IMG/VR virus record: IMGVR_UViG_3300030099_002624
Location: 1 to 30,425 of that record
Strand: one strand, 5' to 3'
Source of the DNA: a virus
Length of the DNA: 30,425 nucleotides
The notes below the pieces were generated by a model, which was given only the letters and a program-made list of their open reading frames with translations, ran no database searches and was not told where the DNA came from. This document shows, piece after piece, positions 2,645 through 21,545 of the stretch; position 1 is the stretch's first letter; every line of letters begins with the position of its first letter. The translations under genes and the position numbers were made by a program.

Positions 2645-4932
2645 TGGCATTAAGATATAATTTTCAAATAACTACTCCAGATGGAGTTACAGAATCTGTA
2701 ATTAGCGAAGGTAATACTATAGCACAAGCTAGAACAAGTGCTTTATCTCGTTTTCCAGGTAGTACTATTACAGGAACACAATACTTAGGTGAATTTGGAC
2801 CACAGTTAAATGTAGATGAAGGATTTGGAGAGGGAATTTCTCCATTTTCAAATCAAGTTGTAACTCCAGGAGACCCTATTGAATTTACTCCAACTCAAAC
2901 TATTTTAGATATTGAAGATTCAGATGTTCCTATTACTAGAGAATTAGTTGAATCTATAAATTTATTATTAAAAAATACAGGAAATTATAATGTTAGTAAT
3001 TTAACTGATGAAAATGTAGAAAATGTTGATAATATAATAAACACTATTAGAAGTGTTCCAAGCACACAAGTTTTTGGTAGAGCAGCAGTTCCAACAGCAA
3101 TAGCTTTTTTAAATGATTCTTTAGAAAATAGAGAAGAAGAAGATAAATTAACTAATCAACAAGTTGCAAACCAAGTTGCTTTACTAAATAGTTTTGTAGG
3201 TAAAATTAATGTTTTTAAAAATTCACCTGATAGATTATCACGTTTAATAGAACCAGGAATTGATGAAGATTTAGGATTTAGAATATCTGCTGAATTACAA
3301 AAAGGCAATCCTTTTGCTAGAGGAAATATTAATACTCCCTTTGCAGCTGATAATGTTACTTCTGAAATTGGAGAAACAGATACAGCAGGTGGTGTTACAG
3401 AAGATGAAAATAATATTACGAATAATATTACGACAGAAGGTGGTGACTCTGGACCATCACCTGGCTCTGCAAATGAAATAGTTGATATAACTCAAACTCC
3501 TGAATATTTAGCTTTGTTAGCAGAAATTGAACAATTAAAAGCAAATCAAGCACCAGGTGCACCTACTCCTGCTGCTTCAGTAACTGAGCTTATTGGAAAT
3601 ATTGGTGACCCAGACTTTCAAGAATTTTTATCACAAAATCAAGATGCTTTGTTTACAACCGTTGATGGTATACCTTCTCTTACTGGTATAGGTGAACAGT
3701 TAATAAACAATTATAATGCAATAAAAGAAGATGAATTAAACAAAGAATTTGAATTAAAACAACAGGAAATTCGTGACAATCAAGTTCTTAGTGAATTAGA
3801 AAAACAAATAGAATTACAAGAAGCTAGACTAGATATAGAAAGAGAAATTACAAAATTAGAAACTGATGCAAGAATTGTTGAATCTAATAATCAATTTAAC
3901 ATAGGTATAAAAGCAGCTCAACAAGATAGAGTTGCTAGAGCAGCACAAGCAAACCAAGACAGACTAGCCAGAGCAGCTGTAGCTGAAACACAAGCAGGAA
4001 CGTCACCATTTTTTGGATTAGATGAACTAGGTGCTGAACAACAAGATGCTAGAAGACGAAGTCAACTTGCAGGAACAGGTGGAGTTTTTGGTGCGTTAGC
4101 AGCAGGAATAAGTCCACAAGATGTTTTTCAAGCACAAAGAGATGGTTTAAGTACTACTGACCAATTAGCTTTAGCAAGAGCTTCAGGAAATCCTTTTGAT
4201 TTAGATGCTCAACAACAAATAGCTTTACAAACTAGTTTAGCTAGAGGGGGTTTGACTCCAGATGAACAAATAGCTTTGGCTAGAGCAACTGCTAATCCTT
4301 TTGGATTTACAGCAGCTCAACAAATAGGATTGCAAGAAAGTTTAGCCAGAGGTGGTCTTACTGCTCCTCAACAATTTGCATTAGAAACACAATTAGCTAG
4401 AGGTGGTTTATCAGCACAAGAACAGTTTGACTTGCAAACTGCTTTGGCTAGAGGTGGACTTACACCAGAACAAAGGTTGGCAGAACAAAGAGCAGCTGTC
4501 AATCCTTTTAATCTAACTGCTCAAGAACAAATTAATTTACAAACAGCATTGGCAAGAGGTGGATTGTCTGCTGAAGAAAGATTAGCAGAACAAAGATTAG
4601 GAATAGTTCCTGAATTATTTAGAGCATCTCCACAATCATTGGGTGCTTTATCTAGTGTATTGGGTGGTACTGCTAATCTAAGAAGTGCATTAAATCCATT
4701 TTTAGGAACAAACTTTACAGGTGGAACAGCTACTCAAGCGACTGCACCTATGTCAACTCCTACTCTTGGACAATATCAACAACAAACTCCATTCCAACAA
4801 GGTGCAACTCAAGCAAATCTTGCATCAACTGGACAAGATATAGAACAAGCAATTTTAGGAGTAACGCCACAAGGAGTGAATACTAATCCTGGAGGTTTAG
4901 CTCCATTTACAAGTACGATAGGAACTTACTAA
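2644..4932 (+). CDS. 762-residue repeat-containing virion protein candidate
   Basis: The function is not recognised. Three regions are visible. The N-terminal part (about residues 1-250) is mixed alpha/beta and acidic. A coiled-coil-like region at about 355-450 is very rich in Glu/Lys/Gln/Leu (for example KQQEIRDNQVLSELEKQIEL). The C-terminal part (about 500-655) has short imperfect repeats with the core LARGGLT/S-x-x-Q/E-Q, at about 17-residue spacing, interrupted by ANPFxxTAxxQ units. The last ~100 residues are Gly/Thr/Gln rich. No enzymatic motif is seen. The position between portal and scaffold, next to a giant protein, suggests an internal (ejected) virion protein or an assembly factor. 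The repeats point to a fibrous or helical-bundle structure. It follows the previous gene by a TAATG overlap. Confidence 0.75.
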   Translation: MALRYNFQITTPDGVTESVISEGNTIAQARTSALSRFPGSTITGTQYLGEFGPQLNVDEGFGEGISPFSNQVVTPGDPIEFTPTQTILDIEDSDVPITRELVESINLLLKNTGNYNVSNLTDENVENVDNIINTIRSVPSTQVFGRAAVPTAIAFLNDSLENREEEDKLTNQQVANQVALLNSFVGKINVFKNSPDRLSRLIEPGIDEDLGFRISAELQKGNPFARGNINTPFAADNVTSEIGETDTAGGVTEDENNITNNITTEGGDSGPSPGSANEIVDITQTPEYLALLAEIEQLKANQAPGAPTPAASVTELIGNIGDPDFQEFLSQNQDALFTTVDGIPSLTGIGEQLINNYNAIKEDELNKEFELKQQEIRDNQVLSELEKQIELQEARLDIEREITKLETDARIVESNNQFNIGIKAAQQDRVARAAQANQDRLARAAVAETQAGTSPFFGLDELGAEQQDARRRSQLAGTGGVFGALAAGISPQDVFQAQRDGLSTTDQLALARASGNPFDLDAQQQIALQTSLARGGLTPDEQIALARATANPFGFTAAQQIGLQESLARGGLTAPQQFALETQLARGGLSAQEQFDLQTALARGGLTPEQRLAEQRAAVNPFNLTAQEQINLQTALARGGLSAEERLAEQRLGIVPELFRASPQSLGALSSVLGGTANLRSALNPFLGTNFTGGTATQATAPMSTPTLGQYQQQTPFQQGATQANLASTGQDIEQAILGVTPQGVNTNPGGLAPFTSTIGTY

Positions 4933-10684: not shown

Positions 10685-11578
10685 ATGGCAACAGGATTGA
10701 CACTAACAGGCTCTTCGAGTCTGAGTGATATGTCTAAAATCATTGTCGCTGAATCAATTGATAACGTAGAGCCGTCAGCACCTATGATGGACCTTGTGAG
10801 CAGGTATGATATACCTACAGGAAGCAAGCAAGTCAATGTTCCTATTTGGGGAAGACAGAGTGCAACAGCTCTTACAGAAGGTGTAGATTTATCTGTACCA
10901 CAGCAAGTTACAGCAACAGTTGTAAACTTGACTGCTTCTGAACACGGAATACTATCATTTGTTAGTGACCGATTACGACATGAAAACAACGAAAACGTAC
11001 TATCAGCAGTAGGTACTATGCACGGAAGAGCAGTAGGTAGATTGCTAGATAGCGACTTATTAACACTATTAGATGGCTTTAGTACATCTAAACCAGGTTC
11101 TGGTAGCAATGCAACATTTACTACTATTGCTGGTGCTGTTTCTCTTTTGAGAACAGACAATGCAACTTTTGGACCAGCTCCAAGTAAACCTAATGCAGTT
11201 TTACACCCAGAGCAGATACGAAGGTTGACTCAAGAACTTGCAGGTATACAAGCAGCAGGTGCAGGTGCAGCAGCAGGTGCTACTGTTCCAGAAGGACCAT
11301 CAGCTGAAGTTATTAGTTCTTATTGGAGAGGTAATGACCCTATCTTTGGTGTTCCTATATATGAAGATGGTAATATTACCGTATCTTCAAACAATGCAAA
11401 AGGTGGAGTATTTGCAAAAGAAGCTCTAGCTTTAGCAATGGAAATGGAAATAGCAGCTGAAGAAGAAAGAGACGCATCACTAAGAGGAACAGAAATTGTA
11501 ACTGTTGGTACTTGGGGTGAGTCAGAAGTTGTTGATAACTGGGGAGTAGAAATATTCTCATTAGCAAGTTCAATATAA
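10685..11578 (+). CDS. Major capsid protein (HK97-type fold expected)
   Basis: A 297-residue protein following the scaffold after an 11-base gap, with an AAGGAAATAAACA leader. It contains segments typical of small phage coat proteins: an N-terminal helix with S-D-M-S-K-I-I-V-A-E-S, a P-domain-like long helix region (RLRHENNENVLSAVGTMHGR, residues ~98-117), an A-domain-like stretch with VLHPEQIRRLTQEL, and a C-terminal FGVPIYED...GVFAKEALALAMEM section ending in beta strands. The FGVPIY...AKEALALA pattern is common to HK97-fold coat proteins. It should be the most abundant virion protein, which fits the good ribosome site. I see no sign of a cleaved delta-domain; scaffolding is supplied by the preceding gene. 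Confidence 0.88.
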   Translation: MATGLTLTGSSSLSDMSKIIVAESIDNVEPSAPMMDLVSRYDIPTGSKQVNVPIWGRQSATALTEGVDLSVPQQVTATVVNLTASEHGILSFVSDRLRHENNENVLSAVGTMHGRAVGRLLDSDLLTLLDGFSTSKPGSGSNATFTTIAGAVSLLRTDNATFGPAPSKPNAVLHPEQIRRLTQELAGIQAAGAGAAAGATVPEGPSAEVISSYWRGNDPIFGVPIYEDGNITVSSNNAKGGVFAKEALALAMEMEIAAEEERDASLRGTEIVTVGTWGESEVVDNWGVEIFSLASSI

Positions 11579-15176: not shown

Positions 15177-17665
15177 TGCCACAACATACAGATGTAAAAC
15201 TACAAAACACAGACGGCAGTTCAAATCCTGTAGAACTAACATTATGGAAGGATAGTCCTAACTTAACAAACGGCTATTCTCTTAGCTCTAAGCCTTTCTT
15301 ACCCCCTAGACAACCGACAGATGATGCGAACTACCAACAGGTTGACCCTAACGCTTCTATGACGTATGACCTTACTTCTTTTCACAGAGGATTTGGTCAA
15401 GGTGAGGATAGAAGTTTTGGTAAGGATGCTAAATATGGTTATTCAGATGGTGTCTTAGCAAACTTTGAAGGTGAGATAACTTTAGGTTATGCACAAGAAG
15501 AAGTAGATATGATTATTAGAAATGGTAGATTTGAAGATACTGAAATCAACCAATGGACTGCAACTAACGTAACACCAGAAAGAGATACTACTGACCCTAG
15601 GTCAGGAGATGCTTCTTTAAAAGTAACTGTTGGTTCTAACAATGGCACTTTAGTCCAGTCATTTGTTGCTAAGTCAGCAGCAGCTTTGAATGGGCAGAAC
15701 TATCAAGTCTTAGCATATGTAAAGAGAGTATCTGGTAGTGGTAGTTGTACACTTACTACAACAAATGGTTCTGGTACTGATAACTCATCTACTAGTACAT
15801 CTTATTCTCTAATAGAAATACAAGGTACGGCAGCTACTGCTGGTACTTCAATAACACTTACGTTTAGTACAGCATCAGATGTTTGGCAAGTAGATGATAT
15901 ATGTGTAATCCCAGCAGGTGGTGTATCTTTTCCTGTACCTCCAGTCAACTTTGAAGGATATAACTACATGATATGTGGTCAAACATTATTATTCTGGAAT
16001 GAAAGTAGAAAGGCATTTGATGTAGGTTATTACTTTGATAGAGTAATGTCTACTATAGAAGTATTTGATGGCAAGATGTTAGTTGGTAGTGACAACATAG
16101 ATGGTAGTAGTAACTATAAATATTTTTATATAACAGTTGGTGGTAATCCAGCAAGTACAACTATTACTGTAAATGCAGTAACAAGTTCAAGTGCATCTGT
16201 AGCAAGAGCACAGTTTTTTGTAAAGGCTAGGAATGCCAACGGAGATTATGCAATAGCAAAAGTATATTCTAATAAGGTTTCGTTTTTGGTAGACCCAGCT
16301 ACAGCTTCACCTGTATGGGGTGGAGAGTTAGAAGTAGGTAAAGCAGATAGAAATATTACAAATGCTTTTGCTGCTAACGATACATTAGTAATTGGTAAAG
16401 AAGATGGCTTGTTTGTATATGATAGAAATGTAAACCAATTTAGAGATGTATCTCCTGAAGCAAATTTATTTTCAGGAGCAAATAATTTTAACAAAGCAAT
16501 TGCAAGAGCAGGTAGAATATTTGCAACATCTGGAGATAGAGCATTCTGGTCTATACCTTTCTTAGTTCAAGATAATCAATGGGAAGATATATCCTATTTG
16601 CTTAGAGCAACCAGCTTTATTGGTTTTGGTGGTAGAGTTACATCAATAGCACAAGATGTAAATAATATATTTGTTACTGTATCTGATGATTTAAAACCAC
16701 AAACACAGTTATATCCATACGCATTTCCTTTTGATTTTAGTACTGGGGGAATTTCCCAGAAAATATATTTAGCAACAATTAGAAATCAAAGAGATAGTAA
16801 AGGTAGTGGTTCTGAAACAGTAGCACATACTATTTCTTCATTAGATATGACTGAGTGTAATCAACTTGCAAGATACAAAGATAATGTTAGTACATCATCT
16901 AGTATTTCTAATTTGTTTGCTTTTGGAATATTTACAAATCCAGATACAGGTGCAACAAATAAAGATGAACCTAGAATAACTAGGTTGGTTATGCCTGTAG
17001 AAAACGAGCATCCCAGTTTAGTTGGTAGTAGGCAGATAAGAACATCTGGTGAGTTTTATACATCTTTTATGGACTTTAATTTTCCAGACCAAGAAAAATC
17101 ATTAGCAAAAATTGCTTTCTTAACTAACAATGTAGACGCAGATAGTACAGTAAAATTATCTTATAAGACTGATGATTCTACTTATGATGATGACCAAGGA
17201 TGGACTGACATAGGTACACTTACGTCTTCTGGTCATCAAGTATTAACACCATCTCTTACAAGTCCTGTGTCTTTTAAACGTATTAGGTTTAAACTTACAT
17301 TGACTACAGGTTTGAGAACAGATATAGGTCCAAGAATATTGAGTATGGTTGTTCATTCTATATTCAACCCTGTTGATTATTTAACATGGAATTTACAATC
17401 AAAGTTGTTAGATGCTAGACTAACAAGTAGAAGATTACGTCAAGCTAGTGATAGCCAAGTGTTGTCTACTACACTAAGTAATTTAGATACCTTGCGACAG
17501 CAAGCATTTATTTTATATACTGATATTGATGGTACTCAATATAGAGCTAGAATATCTAATAGGACTTTGATACCTATAGATAGAGACCGTAGATTTATTA
17601 GTGGAGCTGCAACAGAAAGGTCTTATTTACTATCACTAACATTGAATGAGGTGAAAACAAGCTAA
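15176..17665 (+). CDS. Tail nozzle/tubular protein B-like, with a carbohydrate-binding-like module
   Basis: An 829-residue beta-rich protein. Residues about 112-250 form a CBM_4_9-like module, starting IIRNGRFEDTEINQWTATN and ending in VWQVDDICVIP, as these modules usually do. The rest (from about 255) has repeated short strands with W/F/Y-rich turns (YMICGQTLLFWNESRKAFD, VIGKEDGLFVYDRN, FATSGDRAFWSIPFL), suggesting a beta-propeller like that of T7-type nozzle proteins. The C-terminal ~100 residues are basic and helical (KLLDARLTSRRLRQAS) followed by strands. The function inferred is the tail tip or nozzle that contacts the receptor and closes the DNA channel. It is coupled by TAATG to both neighbours. 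Confidence 0.66.
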   Translation: MPQHTDVKLQNTDGSSNPVELTLWKDSPNLTNGYSLSSKPFLPPRQPTDDANYQQVDPNASMTYDLTSFHRGFGQGEDRSFGKDAKYGYSDGVLANFEGEITLGYAQEEVDMIIRNGRFEDTEINQWTATNVTPERDTTDPRSGDASLKVTVGSNNGTLVQSFVAKSAAALNGQNYQVLAYVKRVSGSGSCTLTTTNGSGTDNSSTSTSYSLIEIQGTAATAGTSITLTFSTASDVWQVDDICVIPAGGVSFPVPPVNFEGYNYMICGQTLLFWNESRKAFDVGYYFDRVMSTIEVFDGKMLVGSDNIDGSSNYKYFYITVGGNPASTTITVNAVTSSSASVARAQFFVKARNANGDYAIAKVYSNKVSFLVDPATASPVWGGELEVGKADRNITNAFAANDTLVIGKEDGLFVYDRNVNQFRDVSPEANLFSGANNFNKAIARAGRIFATSGDRAFWSIPFLVQDNQWEDISYLLRATSFIGFGGRVTSIAQDVNNIFVTVSDDLKPQTQLYPYAFPFDFSTGGISQKIYLATIRNQRDSKGSGSETVAHTISSLDMTECNQLARYKDNVSTSSSISNLFAFGIFTNPDTGATNKDEPRITRLVMPVENEHPSLVGSRQIRTSGEFYTSFMDFNFPDQEKSLAKIAFLTNNVDADSTVKLSYKTDDSTYDDDQGWTDIGTLTSSGHQVLTPSLTSPVSFKRIRFKLTLTTGLRTDIGPRILSMVVHSIFNPVDYLTWNLQSKLLDARLTSRRLRQASDSQVLSTTLSNLDTLRQQAFILYTDIDGTQYRARISNRTLIPIDRDRRFISGAATERSYLLSLTLNEVKTS

Positions 17666-19650
17666 TGGCAAATGAATTTAAACACGCATCAGTTGGAACA
17701 GAATTAACTCAGGCAGAGTACGAAAGTACTACGTCACACGTTTTAGATTCTCAAGCAGCTGGAGATATTATATATGCTAGTTCTACTACTCAGTTATCAA
17801 GACTAGGTATAGGTACAGCTGGCAAAATATTACAGGTAAACTCAGGTGCATCTGCTCCAGAGTGGACTGCAACTGTAACAGGTGTTACATCTGTTTTGAA
17901 TACCAGTTTGGTAATTGGTAGAGATTCTGATAATGATATAGATTTTGCAACTGACAATACAATTTTATTTAGAGCATCTGGTGCTGACCAAATCAAACTA
18001 ATAGATGGTGCATTAGCTCCAGTTACTGACAATGATGTTGATTTAGGAACAAGTTCACTAGAATTTAAGGATGCTTTCTTTGATGGTACAGTAACTTCAG
18101 ATGCTTTTGCTGGTCCTCTTACAGGTGATGTAACAGGTAATGCTGATACAGCAACTACATTAGCAACTGCAAGGGCAATTAATGGAGTAAACTTTGATGG
18201 TAGTGCAGCTATTACAATTACGGCAGCTGGTTCTACTCTTAGTGATACAGTTCCTGTAAGTAAAGGTGGAACTAATGCTACTTCACTTGCAGATAAAGCT
18301 GTACTTATTACACAAGATTCAGGTACTGATACTGTTTCGGCAGCAGCAATGTCATCAAATGGTCAATTACTTATTGGTGGAACAAGTGGTCCAGCAGTAG
18401 GTACATTGACAGCAGGTAGTAACGTTACAATTACTAATGCTGATGGTGAAATAACTATAGCAGCTGCTTCTTCAAGTGGTGATATAACTGGTGTTACTTT
18501 GACTGGTGATGATAGCAATACTGCATCTGATACAGCAGGTAGTGCAGATTTTACTATAGCAGGTGGGTCAGGATTGACTACATCTGTTTCTGGAACTACA
18601 GTTACAGTAGCAGGAGACAATGCAAGTACATCTGCTAAAGGTGTTGCACAATTTAGTTCTGATAACTTTGCTGCATCTAGTGGTACTATAACAATCAAAG
18701 ATGGTGGTATAGTAACAGCAGAATTAGCAGCAGATGCAGTTACAAGTGCAAAAATAGCTGATGACGCTATAGGTAGCGAACATATAGCAGATGACGCAGT
18801 AGTTACTGCTGCAATAGCTGATGATGCAATAACCTCTGCTCTAATAGCAGATGATGCCGTTGTTAGTGCATCAGTAGCAGATAGTGCAATTACTACTGCT
18901 TTGATAGCAGCTGATGCTGTAACAGGTGCTAAGATAGCAGATAATGCAATTGATAGTGACCATTATACTGATGGTTCTATTGATACAGCACATATTGCTG
19001 ACAACAATGTAACAGCAGCAAAGATATTTGATTTGGCTAGAGGTAGTATTCTTTATGGAAATGCTAGTGCAGCAACAGCAGAACTTACAGCAGGAAGTGC
19101 TAATACAGTATTGACATCTGATGGTAATGATATTTCCTGGGCAGCAGCTAGTGGTGGTGGATTTGAAGAGGTTGATATGTGGAGACTTCATACATCTTTA
19201 ACAGGTGATGCAGACCCTATTAGTTCAAACTTAGAAAGAGTTGATACTGGTGGGTTTGCTGCAATCAAAACTGGTAATAGTGCATCTGGAATGTCAGAAA
19301 GTAGTGGAGTGTTTACATTCCCTCAAACAGGTATTTATAAAATAACATTTCATGCTACTTTGTCTGGAGCTGGTGGAAGTGGAAGTGCTGACACAAATGT
19401 TACTTACAGTATCAAAACAACAAATAACAATGGAACTAGCTATACTACTAATACTTCTCACCTTTTGCTTTCTTTATATAACGCATCAGCTCAAACAAGT
19501 GGAACAACTCATATGATATTTGATGTAACAGATACTTCACAGGACAAAGTTGCATTCAAAGTTGGAGGACAAGCTGCAAGTAATAAGACTGAGGGTTGGA
19601 GTGATATTAGTTACACTTACTTTCTTTTTGAAAGATTAGGGGATACATAA
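17665..19650 (+). CDS. Tail fibre/spike with pentad-type repeats and C1q-like tip
   Basis: A 661-residue fibre protein with three parts. Residues 1-~350 are beta-structured, with phage-fibre-like stretches (GKILQVNSGASAPEWT; TVPVSKGGTNATSLADKAVL is the usual fibre 'SKGGTGATS' motif). Residues about 351-455 are an array of ~8-11-residue repeats of the type I-A-D-D-A-[IV]-x-[ST]-x-x. Residues ~496-661 form a compact domain with the signature of a C1q/TNF-like jelly-roll (GVFTFPQTGIYKITFHATL ... YFLFERLG). Such tips trimerise and often recognise the host surface. The start follows the previous stop by TAATG. This is the best receptor-binding candidate of the window. The C-terminal sequence is echoed in a tiny reading frame just downstream. 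Confidence 0.85.
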   Translation: MANEFKHASVGTELTQAEYESTTSHVLDSQAAGDIIYASSTTQLSRLGIGTAGKILQVNSGASAPEWTATVTGVTSVLNTSLVIGRDSDNDIDFATDNTILFRASGADQIKLIDGALAPVTDNDVDLGTSSLEFKDAFFDGTVTSDAFAGPLTGDVTGNADTATTLATARAINGVNFDGSAAITITAAGSTLSDTVPVSKGGTNATSLADKAVLITQDSGTDTVSAAAMSSNGQLLIGGTSGPAVGTLTAGSNVTITNADGEITIAAASSSGDITGVTLTGDDSNTASDTAGSADFTIAGGSGLTTSVSGTTVTVAGDNASTSAKGVAQFSSDNFAASSGTITIKDGGIVTAELAADAVTSAKIADDAIGSEHIADDAVVTAAIADDAITSALIADDAVVSASVADSAITTALIAADAVTGAKIADNAIDSDHYTDGSIDTAHIADNNVTAAKIFDLARGSILYGNASAATAELTAGSANTVLTSDGNDISWAAASGGGFEEVDMWRLHTSLTGDADPISSNLERVDTGGFAAIKTGNSASGMSESSGVFTFPQTGIYKITFHATLSGAGGSGSADTNVTYSIKTTNNNGTSYTTNTSHLLLSLYNASAQTSGTTHMIFDVTDTSQDKVAFKVGGQAASNKTEGWSDISYTYFLFERLGDT

Positions 19651-20062: not shown

Positions 20063-20242
20063 ATGGAACAAGAAAATTTAGGAACAATAATTATGGATGA
20101 TGTGCTTTTGTTGTGCAAACTTAATAAAGGTTTTGAAGCACAATTAATTCTAATAGCACAAACAAGAATGAATATAGAAAAGAAAGGAACTACAAATGGC
20201 ATACGGAATGAAGACCAAGAAAAAGTCAATGAAAAAAAATAG
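20063..20242 (+). CDS. Short 59-residue hypothetical protein
   Basis: A frame MEQENLGTIIMDDVLLLCKL... of 59 residues with an excellent ribosome site (AAAGGAGATAATC before ATG). The N-terminal half is amphipathic-helical, with one Cys; the C-terminal end is charged and shares DNA with the overlapping next gene (its last 47 bases overlap the start of the 34-residue basic protein). No family is recognised. The strong ribosome site is the main support. Confidence 0.6.
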   Translation: MEQENLGTIIMDDVLLLCKLNKGFEAQLILIAQTRMNIEKKGTTNGIRNEDQEKVNEKK

Positions 20243-20300
20243 TGGTATGCGAAAAGCAGGCATGACTGCAAAACGTAAATCTAAAAAAAAGAGATACTAA
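20196..20300 (+). CDS. 34-residue very basic peptide
   Basis: MAYGMKTKKKSMKKNSGMRK and on to a KRKSKKKRY end: 34 residues, about half of them Lys/Arg, with Met and Gly as spacers. It starts inside the previous gene in another frame, with AAAGGAACTACAA upstream. The composition resembles protamine- or histone-tail-like nucleic-acid binders, and it opens a run of five such proteins, so I take it as genuine. The molecular role is unknown. Confidence 0.62.
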   Translation: MAYGMKTKKKSMKKNSGMRKAGMTAKRKSKKKRY

Positions 20301-20301
20301 T

Positions 20302-20475
20302 ATGAAAATAAAAAATGTAAACATAGATTCCTTGACTAAAAGACAACAAGCTTCTATGAAAAGACACGGCAAGCACCATACTTCTAAGCACCTTAGAGAG
20401 ATGGTGAAGTCTATGAACAGAGGTAGAACTTTTACGCAGTCACATAAATCTGCAATGAGAAAAGTGGGAAAGTGA
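20302..20475 (+). CDS. 57-residue basic, His-rich small protein
   Basis: MKIKNVNIDSLTKRQQASMK and onward: 57 residues with 5 His (RHGKHHTSKH) and many Lys/Arg, ending SHKSAMRKVGK. A helix-turn-helix-like arrangement is possible (DSLTKRQQASMKRH ... HTSKHLREMVKSMNRG). The order 'L-T-x-R-Q-Q-x-x-x-x-x-H-x-x-x-H-x-x-x-H-[IL]' followed by a 'T-F-x-x-S-H-x-x-A-x-x-x-V-G-K' end is a pattern I have seen in small marine-phage proteins of unknown role. It starts one base after the previous stop with no strong ribosome site, so it is probably coupled. Confidence 0.65.
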   Translation: MKIKNVNIDSLTKRQQASMKRHGKHHTSKHLREMVKSMNRGRTFTQSHKSAMRKVGK

Positions 20476-20549
20476 TAGGTGATAGAGTGTTTAGTTTTAT
20501 ATTGTTTATAGCAATGCTAATCACTTTATTATTTATAGGAGAAATGTAA
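20472..20549 (+). CDS. 25-residue single-membrane-helix peptide (GTG start)
   Basis: The frame begins with GTG overlapping the previous stop (GTGA) and ends at a TAA that overlaps the next ATG. It encodes MIGDRVFSFILFIAMLITLL and then FIGEM: almost entirely one hydrophobic helix (residues 6-22). The double overlap and the lack of any intergenic space suggest a translated, coupled membrane peptide rather than spacer. The GTG start and the weak ribosome site lower confidence. It also contains the ribosome site (AGGAGAA) for the next gene. Confidence 0.5.
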   Translation: MIGDRVFSFILFIAMLITLLFIGEM

Positions 20550-20740
20550 TGGCTACTAAAAAGAAAAGAAAATCAACAGTCAATCAAGCAGGTAACTATA
20601 CTAAACCTACTATGAGAAAACGATTGTTTCAGAGAATAAAAGCAGGTAGTAAAGGTGGTGCTAGAGGGCAATGGTCTGCTCGTAAAGCACAAATGTTGGC
20701 TAAACAATACAAGGCTAAAGGTGGGGGTTACAGAAACTAA
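20549..20740 (+). CDS. 63-residue basic small protein
   Basis: A Lys/Arg/Gly-rich protein (MATKKKRKSTVNQAGNYTKP ... GSKGGARGQWSARKAQMLAK) with a clear ribosome site (ATAGGAGAAATGTA). The motif K-G-G-x-x-G-x-W-S-A-R-K-A-Q-x-L-A-x-x-Y-K-x-x-G-G-G-Y is typical of short proteins in marine phages and often comes with the two basic genes that follow. It could condense or bind DNA or RNA; no enzymatic function is suggested. The stop overlaps the next ATG. Confidence 0.72.
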   Translation: MATKKKRKSTVNQAGNYTKPTMRKRLFQRIKAGSKGGARGQWSARKAQMLAKQYKAKGGGYRN

Positions 20741-20982
20741 TGGCTAAAACCAAACGTCAACAATCATTATCTAAATGGACTAAACAGAGATGGGATTATG
20801 TTTCTGCTAGTGATAAGAAAAAACCTAAAAGTAAACGTGGTAGGTATTTACCTGCTAGTGTTCGTGCTAGTCTAAGTCCAGGAGAAAAAGCTGCAACTAA
20901 TAGAAAGAAAAGAAAAGCAGGTGGAGTAGGTAGTAGAGCAAAATATTCAAAGAAAATAGCAAGAGGTGTTAGGAGAGCATAA
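20740..20982 (+). CDS. 80-residue basic small protein
   Basis: A very basic protein, MAKTKRQQSLSKWTKQRWDY followed by a KRGRYLPASVRASLSPGEKA core and a KKRKAGGVGSRAKYSKKIAR tail. The repertoire (W-T-x-Q-x-W, R-Y-L-P-x-x-x-x-x-x-L-[ST]-x-x-E) recurs in short phage proteins near the structural operon end. No catalytic residues are seen. It is coupled on both sides by TAATG overlaps, forming a tight three-gene unit with its neighbours. Confidence 0.72.
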   Translation: MAKTKRQQSLSKWTKQRWDYVSASDKKKPKSKRGRYLPASVRASLSPGEKAATNRKKRKAGGVGSRAKYSKKIARGVRRA

Positions 20983-21257
20983 TGGTTGCAAAGAAATATC
21001 AAAATCCTAAAGGTGGTTTGAATGCAGCAGGTAGGGCATACTTCAAAAGAAAAGAAGGTGCTAATCTAAAGCGACCACTCAAGTCTGGTACATCACCTAG
21101 ACGTGTAAGCTTTGCTGCTAGGGTTGGTGGTATGCCAGGGGCATTGAAAGATAAGAAAGGTAGACCTACTAGATTAAAACTTGCATTAAAAGCTTGGGGG
21201 TTTGGCAGTAAAAGAGCTGCTAGAAACTTTGCTAGAAGACACAAAAAAAAGAAATAA
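20982..21257 (+). CDS. 91-residue basic protein, DUF6321-like
   Basis: The sequence PKGGLNAAGRAYFKRKEG, then LKRPLKSGTSPRRVSFAAR, then a MPGALKDKKGRPTRLKLALK segment closely matches the small basic protein family usually labelled DUF6321 in marine phages and some bacteria (from memory; not searched). It is about 91 residues, the expected length, and basic throughout, ending ARRHKKKK. The function is unknown; nucleic-acid binding is plausible from charge. The gene overlaps the previous stop. Confidence 0.78.
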   Translation: MVAKKYQNPKGGLNAAGRAYFKRKEGANLKRPLKSGTSPRRVSFAARVGGMPGALKDKKGRPTRLKLALKAWGFGSKRAARNFARRHKKKK

Positions 21258-21260
21258 TAT

Positions 21261-21545
21261 ATGGTAGATAAATCTGAAAAAAATATTAAAGAGAAAGATG
21301 GGAATGTAAATCTAACTGGAACGCAGTTGATTACTTTTCTTATATTCTTTCCAATCGTAGTAGTGTGGTTGTTCCTCGCTGCTAGAATAGTTTGGAGTGC
21401 ATCAAGTAATCCTGAGACCCTAGATTCGATAGAAGGATTATTGACTGCTTTGGCAGTTTTGTCTCTGCCAGTTGCAGGTGGACTTTCAGAAATACTCAGG
21501 GCGTATGCTGCTGAGGTAACAGACAAGAAAAAAGGAGATGACTGA
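21261..21545 (+). CDS. 94-residue protein with two membrane helices
   Basis: The protein has a charged N-terminus, a hydrophobic helix at about residues 22-47 (LITFLIFFPIVVVWLFLAAR), a short loop, a second hydrophobic segment at about 60-80 (GLLTALAVLSLPVAGGLSEI), and a charged C-terminal tail (EVTDKKKGDD). This is the layout of small class II-type holins, but many small phage membrane proteins look alike and no lysin gene is present nearby to confirm it. The stop overlaps the ATG of the next gene after the intervening GATG, with GGAGATG acting as a ribosome site. Confidence 0.7.
   Translation: MVDKSEKNIKEKDGNVNLTGTQLITFLIFFPIVVVWLFLAARIVWSASSNPETLDSIEGLLTALAVLSLPVAGGLSEILRAYAAEVTDKKKGDD

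Follow-up and report, generated by a model that had tools for sequence, protein, structure and literature searches.

A DUF5872-like protein split over two genes and a DUF6321 protein in an island of small basic genes: candidate DNA-associated proteins of a phage particle

Results and discussion

Seven small genes on the plus strand of a virus record

We analysed a virus record of 30,425 bases (IMG/VR record IMGVR_UViG_3300030099_002624), hereafter the window, which is identical to locus L001 of the comparisons below. The subject is an island of seven small open reading frames (ORFs) at 20063-21257, in which two adjacent genes appear to encode the halves of one protein related to the Pfam family DUF5872 and a third encodes a DUF6321 protein; both are Pfam families of unknown function. 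A first-pass annotation, made from the sequence alone, had listed seven ORFs of 59, 34, 57, 25, 63, 80 and 91 amino acids, five of them strongly Lys/Arg-rich. The coordinates, the overlaps and the GTG start of the smallest were all borne out, and g2, g3, g5, g6 and g7 have net charges of +14 to +27 (K+R minus D+E). The seven ORFs are as follows.

g1: 20063-20242, plus strand; 59 amino acids, ATG start, net charge -1, with AAAAAAAGGAG upstream; no family match.
g2: 20196-20300, plus strand; 34 amino acids, ATG start, net charge +15 (44% K/R).
g3: 20302-20475, plus strand; 57 amino acids, ATG start, net charge +14; phrog_31838-like.
g4: 20472-20549, plus strand; 25 amino acids, GTG start, net charge -1; a single hydrophobic stretch (grand average of hydropathy 1.87); overlaps g3 and g5.
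g5: 20549-20740, plus strand; 63 amino acids, ATG start, net charge +19; predicted N-terminal half of a DUF5872-like protein.
g6: 20740-20982, plus strand; 80 amino acids, ATG start, net charge +24; predicted C-terminal half of a DUF5872-like protein.
g7: 20982-21257, plus strand; 91 amino acids, ATG start, net charge +27; DUF6321 (PF19846).

The g1 and g2 frames overlap by 47 nucleotides (nt), a gap of 1 nt separates g2 from g3, and the later joins are overlaps of 4, 1, 1 and 1 nt. The basic ORFs of the island exceed chance expectation: five plus-strand ORFs of at least 30 amino acids had a net charge per residue above 0.2, totalling 325 amino acids, and in 500 resamplings from a first-order Markov model the mean was 0.57 such ORFs (22.9 amino acids), with maxima of 4 ORFs and 167 amino acids. 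A search of NCBIfam named no island gene.

Genes g5 and g6 as two halves of one protein

Profile searches placed g5 in phrog_17747 (E value 2.4e-35, profile positions 4-63 of 63) and g6 in phrog_14910 (2.7e-13, positions 1-75 of 80). In an alignment of 16 diverse phage rows, 28 of 62 residues of g5 were invariant. A candidate relation of g5 to fluorinase (0.14, and 0.0095 in NCBIfam, with about 26 residues covered) was rejected as chance.

The two genes were then followed through 191 loci, a set in which the window and L001 are the same and some contigs are counted twice; the viral-collection scans behind it used one query gene each, with at most 80 loci kept per scan. A g5 match was present in 181 of the 191 loci and a g6 match in 183, and 181 had both; in the two g6 loci without g5, the locus starts 122 and 132 nt ahead of g6. 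Of 155 distinct g6 sequences, 153 were accompanied by g5, which lay upstream on the same strand in every one of the 153, at a distance of up to 60 nt in 113, 61-300 nt in 25 and farther in 15. By scan, g6 was present in 80 of 80 g5 loci and g5 in 77 of 79 g6 loci. Three genome loci of 80 had g5 and no g6 match (L197, L212 and L222), each with less than 350 nt of contig left past g5, and three of the 78 loci of the fused-query scan had g6 and no g5 match. In L090, L091 and L092 the g5 and g6 profile matches stand about 124 nt apart, as compared with 5 in the window.

The two parts also occur as one ORF, and in either order. A g5-g6 fusion was found in 58 of the 78 viral loci of the fused-query scan and in 16 of the best 80 of 410 genome loci. 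The reverse order, g6-g5, was found as a single ORF in 13 of the same best 80, and all 13 are titled Pelagibacteraceae.

The link to DUF5872 (PF19197) comes from a fused relative, L261, which aligned with columns 2-95 of the model (1.1e-5), at 26.5 bits under the curated cut-off of 27.5. Neither g5 nor g6 alone matched the model at E values up to 1, and a search of the window with the model at E 0.001 returned nothing, as it did in 14 control genomes. The window differs from the family in that the two halves of DUF5872 lie on separate genes and not on one chain. The family itself is listed for the phycodnavirus CpV-BQ1 in a table of PMC12085832 and named in CeV-01B in a viral model library. 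With the near-constant pairing and the fusions, these alignments identify g5 and g6 as halves of a single DUF5872-related protein, a point that the first-pass annotation did not have.

The L261 fused protein was modelled with high confidence as a small helical protein, with a mean predicted local distance difference test (pLDDT) of 92.3 and a predicted template modelling (pTM) score of 0.63. Foldseek gave no match to the Protein Data Bank (PDB) at E values up to 0.001, and the best VIA Z score was 2.2 among 18 chains; the lack of a fold relative in the PDB is no proof of a new fold. Searches of the sequences of solved structures, with phmmer (g5, g7 and L261) and with profiles from both alignments, gave nothing credible. 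From the pairing, the fusions and the predicted fold of L261, we infer that the halves would meet in space, whichever way they are connected.

A second family, of the phrog_23735 type, is likely, though not proven, to be distantly related to g6. The direct match was at E 0.0035, and the profile comparison scored 20.7-21.2, in an alignment that spans most of both lengths. For each of the three targets, this exceeded the best of 100 column-shuffled controls (17.0-17.4) as well as the reversed control (14.5-15.8). One member of this family, L401, matched DUF5872 columns 52-103 (4.4e-5, 24.5 bits, again under the cut-off of 27.5).

The DUF6321 gene g7 and its neighbourhood

The first-pass annotation had called one of the proteins DUF6321-like, and g7 is indeed a member of PF19846: residues 7-72 matched profile positions 2-72 of 72 at E 1.2e-21, with 77.6 bits against a cut-off of 28.5. 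Among phage records, g7 found relatives in 63 at 1e-5, and a cyanophage query found DUF6321 in 549 at 1e-3, a number that includes many near-identical isolates. The g7 model (pLDDT 87.7, pTM 0.72) had no relative at Z of at least 2 among 38 PDB chains, in a VIA second look only. At E values up to 0.001, the viral model library gave 14 of 87 matches for g7 and 5 of 54 for the fused L261 model, mostly with uncharacterised or DUF6321 names. DUF6321-like folds were also seen in two proteins of uncultured tailed phages, A0A6J5N5R9 (Ferritin/DPS, 679 amino acids) and A0A6J5R4H4 (AAA domain, 1143 amino acids), where the fold is possibly a cargo tag. In L115, L122, L126 and L141, proteins of 292-299 amino acids start with DUF6321 and continue with about 180 residues of other sequence.

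The DUF5872-type and DUF6321 genes are neighbours in a part of the loci. Among 80 g7-scan loci, a DUF5872-type gene lay within 150 nt in 21 and within 1 kb in 22, and no DUF5872-type match was found in 58. The two families are close together in L248 and L242, which are contigs of the genome collection, and in L261, a phage-like contig whose fused gene lies 441 nt from a DUF6321 gene.

Many DUF6321 genes stand among genes for head and packaging. The next downstream gene of at least 140 amino acids after g7 was a portal or head-tail adaptor gene in 47 of 80 loci (names assigned through representatives; in 12 of the 80, no gene of that length is left on the contig). In MEP301 the DUF6321 gene directly precedes the head-tail connector, in HTVC022P it lies between the scaffold and capsid genes, in P-SCSP1d between capsid and tail tube, and in P-TIM40, ACG-2014f, S-SCSM1, S-CREM1 and S-CREM2 between the small and large terminase genes. 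MEP402 carries relatives of DUF6321, g5 and g6, in that order, immediately before the large terminase gene.

These positions raise the possibility that the proteins help in packaging or assembly, for instance as partners of terminase, portal or scaffold, and do not remain in the finished virion. The frequent portal or adaptor gene after g7, the terminase company in the five phages above and the scaffold/capsid position in HTVC022P speak for such helpers. The reported presence of domain carriers in virions, the position of the window's own genes after the tail fibre gene, and the cellular copies, beside which no phage packaging gene was seen in ORF lists read by eye, speak against them, and we consider this explanation rather unlikely.

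Larger DUF6321 proteins reported from phage particles

In P-TIM40, S-CREM1 and HTVC022P the DUF6321 domain stands alone, as in g7. In S-SCSM1, S-CREM2, S-E7 and ACG-2014f, unlike g7, it forms the C-terminal end of a protein of 490-880 amino acids. Two of these larger proteins connect the domain with the particle. First, S-SCSM1 ORF29 (517 amino acids) ends in DUF6321 (PF19846, 3e-22) and is labelled 'virion protein' in its record; 45 phage proteins of S-SCSM1 are reported from CsCl-purified virions by mass spectrometry (PMC9602691). Second, S-CREM2 ORF137 (490 amino acids, 108049-109521), which ends in DUF6321 at 109300-109518 of the record (3.5e-10), is listed in the virion proteome with 4 unique peptides and 4.1% coverage (PMC10665884, Table 3). 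In addition, the N-terminal module of ORF29 matched a phrog_23735-type profile (1.7e-6); if the relation of that family to g6 is right, relatives of two of the three core proteins (g5, g6 and g7) would be joined in one virion-labelled protein. The middle module of ORF29, judged by eye, has a possible likeness to g5. Both proteins resemble the island in their DUF6321 end, and ORF29 also in its g6-related module; they differ in being single long chains with other segments, as against the tiny basic proteins of the window.

For S-CREM1, 14 virion proteins are reported, and the part of PMC9964418 consulted leaves the inclusion of the stand-alone DUF6321 gene unstated. The text of PMC9860041, as far as seen, mentions no virion mass spectrometry for the P-SCSP phages. 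For HTVC022P and HTVC027P, PMC12753301 assigns temporal classes gene by gene. The label 'structural protein, T4 GC0119' of the S-E7 protein was given no weight, T4-GC119 being called hypothetical in the part of PMC3037559 consulted.

Conservation of the set and coding status of the minor genes

Relatives in the viral collection numbered at least 597 for g5, at least 593 for g7, 362 for g6 and 26 contigs for g3. Among isolates, g5 was found in 17 records (HMO-2011 twice), which are phages of SAR11, SAR116, Roseobacter and Methylophilales, plus one Synechococcus phage. All seven genes together were found, among the 191 loci, in the window and two contigs (L087/L167 and L092/L170); across 1483 nt the former contig and the window have the same sequence (100% identity). 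The full seven-gene set is clade-specific and the core is not. The 'conserved clustering' claimed in the first-pass annotation therefore holds for g5-g6 and partly for g7, and not for the whole set.

Gene order also varies, being DUF6321-g5-g6 in MEP402 and g5-g6-g7 in the window. This variation, together with the DUF6321-like folds in proteins named Ferritin/DPS and AAA, is what would be expected of mobile accessory modules with no one common role, small basic domains being easily recruited as cargo tags or DNA tethers. The strong purifying selection on g5 and its 28 invariant residues out of 62 argue instead for one demanding function, and we regard such modules as improbable.

Coding status was assessed by the ratio of nonsynonymous to synonymous change, combined across the nearest distinct relatives, at most 12, whose synonymous divergence (dS) exceeded 0.05. 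The ratios were 0.16 for g3, 0.12 for g5, 0.22 for g6 and 0.34 for g7; these values show purifying selection on the four frames, which are clearly coding. For g2 the ratio was 0.22, based on one relative, and this gene is likely to be coding; in L090 and L091 the frame is likewise open and starts with ATG, though without a g2 profile match, and a PHROG search with g2 gave a chance-level match alone (0.52). The g3 protein belongs to phrog_31838 (1.3e-5, profile positions 3-51 of 51), and 6 of 25 g3-scan loci had neither g5 nor g6.

The signal for coding is weaker in g1, with a ratio of 0.62 from three distinct relatives and a presence in 10 loci. The ratio of g4 was 0.49 from five of six relatives, the sixth being left out at a dS of 0. 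In five other distinct spacer sequences, the GTG of g4 was kept in four, the stop codon in one and the hydrophobic core, without insertions or deletions, in all five. As an exact gene, g4 is doubtful, and we treat it as a possible one. The g4 slot between g3 and g5 is filled in L134, L135, L143 and L103 by another protein, about 75 amino acids long.

The weak signals and few relatives of g4 and g1 are the points in favour of an annotation artefact, in which the ORFs would be untranslated. Given the ratios of 0.12-0.34 for g3, g5, g6 and g7 and the hundreds of relatives of g5, g6 and g7, an artefact is very improbable.

Cellular homologues and hints of nucleic acid as target

Homologues of the g5-g6 pair also occur in cellular genomes, titled Pelagibacteraceae, Spirosoma, Fibrella, Occallatibacter and others, usually one per genome. 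The SAR11 copies are flanked by an SDR-like gene on one side and, in most loci read, by a TspO-like gene on the other (names by eye). In L260, L266, L432, L433, L435 and L437, of the SAR11 family, a g6-g5 fusion of 138 amino acids keeps a constant place between these two genes. No common neighbour was seen, in ORF lists read by eye, for the copies outside SAR11. Cellular occurrence is sporadic. In the SAR11 family to which L260 belongs, 10 of 79 genomes had a g6 match, which in one case was an 80-residue ORF; the figures are 8 of 61 for the family of L267 and 1 of 149 for the phylum of L264, and the genomes used to choose these groups are counted in all three.

Some of the cellular proteins carry further segments. 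In L253 the pair is fused to Rho_N (25.5 bits, cut-off 24.9), with an additional sub-threshold SAP match. The Lys/Ala-rich tails of the cellular fusions L250 and L262 weakly resemble the bacterial histone H1-like HC2 (PF07382/NF038052), below its cut-off, and the proteins of the window are unlike HC2 in having no such tail. The Rho_N fusion and the H1-like tails point to nucleic acid as the probable target.

The cellular homologues, some with Lys/Ala-rich tails and one with Rho_N, indicate a use without a virion. They fit an explanation in which the island proteins are made late, stay out of the particle and work on nucleic acid within the infected cell, for example in the host nucleoid, on mRNA or on ribosomes. 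Against it stand the report of DUF6321-bearing proteins in two virion proteomes and the place of DUF6321 genes, in several groups of phages, beside those for the head and for packaging. We consider action in the cell alone to be possible and, among the alternatives to a role in the particle, the one to be taken most seriously, although on balance doubtful.

Genes around the island

On the plus strand of the window, the island follows a tail fibre gene (tail fibre matches at 17665-19650) and a gene of 112 amino acids, and is followed by genes of 94 and 292 amino acids. A weak major-head-protein match at 10685-11578 (1.7e-7, PHROG) marks a capsid candidate. The minus strand carries replication genes from about 23.5 kb onward. 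The gene next to the island in the run lies outside the interval of the first-pass annotation.

g8: 21261-21545, plus strand; 94 amino acids, one hydrophobic stretch, not basic.

The position of g8 directly 3' of the island is holin-like, and no confident family was found for it. At the other end of the window, the ORF at 71-523 may be what is left, at the C-terminal end, of a truncated large terminase gene, by position only, and had no PHROG match. It adjoins a putative portal gene of 641 amino acids, for which neither the phage collection (at 1e-5) nor PHROG gave a match.

A proposed role on packaged DNA

We propose that g5, g6 and g7 form a core, to which g3 and g2 are probably accessory, and that these small basic proteins are produced late, become part of the particle and there bind nucleic acid. 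Confidence in this proposal is evenly balanced. In the proposed sequence of events, the g5 and g6 proteins would be made separately late in infection and would be expected to act as a complex. The g7 protein is a free-standing form of the domain that closes a larger, particle-reported protein in several cyanomyoviruses. All three would then enter the virion, either passing into the head with the DNA or binding DNA at assembly. Head entry or DNA binding is suggested by the charge of the proteins, their position in the structural run, the head-gene company of many of their relatives and the detection of larger relatives in particles. On packaged DNA, they may neutralise charge, or may hold cargo or DNA ends. 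The five basic proteins carry a net charge of +99 per set, so that for a genome of 30-40 kb, 60 to 80 sets would be needed to offset roughly one tenth of its charge; tethering, end protection or cargo binding would need fewer.

The closest functional likeness that we compared is PBCV-1, in which basic proteins are recovered with packaged viral DNA, according to the part of PMC3281028 consulted. The comparison is one of working only: PBCV-1 is a eukaryotic virus, no sequence relation was found, and its two best-known proteins of this kind carry a protein kinase domain and a 'basic adaptor' domain. In the open-access literature searched, we found nothing on DUF6321 or on the PHROG numbers of the island, and DUF5872 only as the table entry for CpV-BQ1.

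Several observations weigh against a role in the particle or against steps that lead to it. With respect to the pair, g5 and g6 are about 1.8 kb apart in HMO-2011 (L003). At 3156-4922 of that locus, three genes lie between the g5-bearing gene and the g6 gene, one of them annotated as a methanesulfonate monooxygenase subunit. The distant g6 relatives of the phrog_23735 type also do without g5, which had no match in any of 80 such loci. The link between g6 and the phrog_23735-type family is weakened by an HHalign probability of 1-2% and by a reversed control that itself scored 14.5-15.8 against 20.7-21.2. With respect to position, the genes close the run in HTVC034P and HTVC204P, where they come after a peptidase gene, and also in the window, where they come after the tail fibre gene; in none of these are they among packaging genes. 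A TerS, TerL or portal gene lay within 3 kb in 64 of 80 g7-scan loci, and the number fell to 39 of 80 for g5, 28 of 79 for g6 and 10 of 78 for the fused query. The cellular homologues imply a role without a virion, and the tail of one of them, L264, had no family match.

The particle evidence has limits of its own. The S-SCSM1 record labels 48 coding sequences 'virion protein' as compared with the 45 of the paper, so that the detection of ORF29 rests on its label. The S-CREM2 ORF137 was detected at just 4.1% coverage and is hypothetical in its own record, with no virion label. The parts of PMC9602691 and PMC10665884 consulted both allow that non-structural enzymes may stay with virions through CsCl purification. 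Moreover, the introduction of PMC3281028, in the part consulted, states that there is no evidence of basic proteins contributing much to the neutralisation of phage DNA. Finally, the particle reports cover only larger relatives, in which DUF6321 is one part of the chain. Trypsin yields very short peptides from Lys/Arg-rich proteins, which may explain why stand-alone forms are unreported.

The first-pass annotation had suggested that short basic proteins produced late could condense phage DNA, bind RNA or be packaged in the head, an interpretation that is supported in part. The suggestion of packaging gains from the DUF6321-bearing relatives S-SCSM1 ORF29 and S-CREM2 ORF137 and from the many relatives near head and packaging genes, and it loses from the relatives that lie elsewhere. 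Two points go beyond that annotation, namely the split g5-g6 pair and the connection of the module families with virions.

Implications

A broader idea, which we put forward tentatively and hold to be unlikely at present, is that the DUF5872 halves and DUF6321 are portable small basic modules that coat or tether packaged DNA. They would form a simple phage chromatin common to tailed phages of marine and fresh waters, phycodnaviruses and some bacteria, in which g5-g6 would be a protein split into two genes that works from two polypeptides or, in whichever order its halves are joined, from one. Its occurrence in split, fused and order-swapped forms provides a natural test of how a unit is built from two halves. 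Two families that are uncharacterised, though found in hundreds of virus contigs, gain a concrete, testable role. If the proteins do lie on packaged DNA, the view that tailed phages are without basic DNA-packing proteins would need revision.

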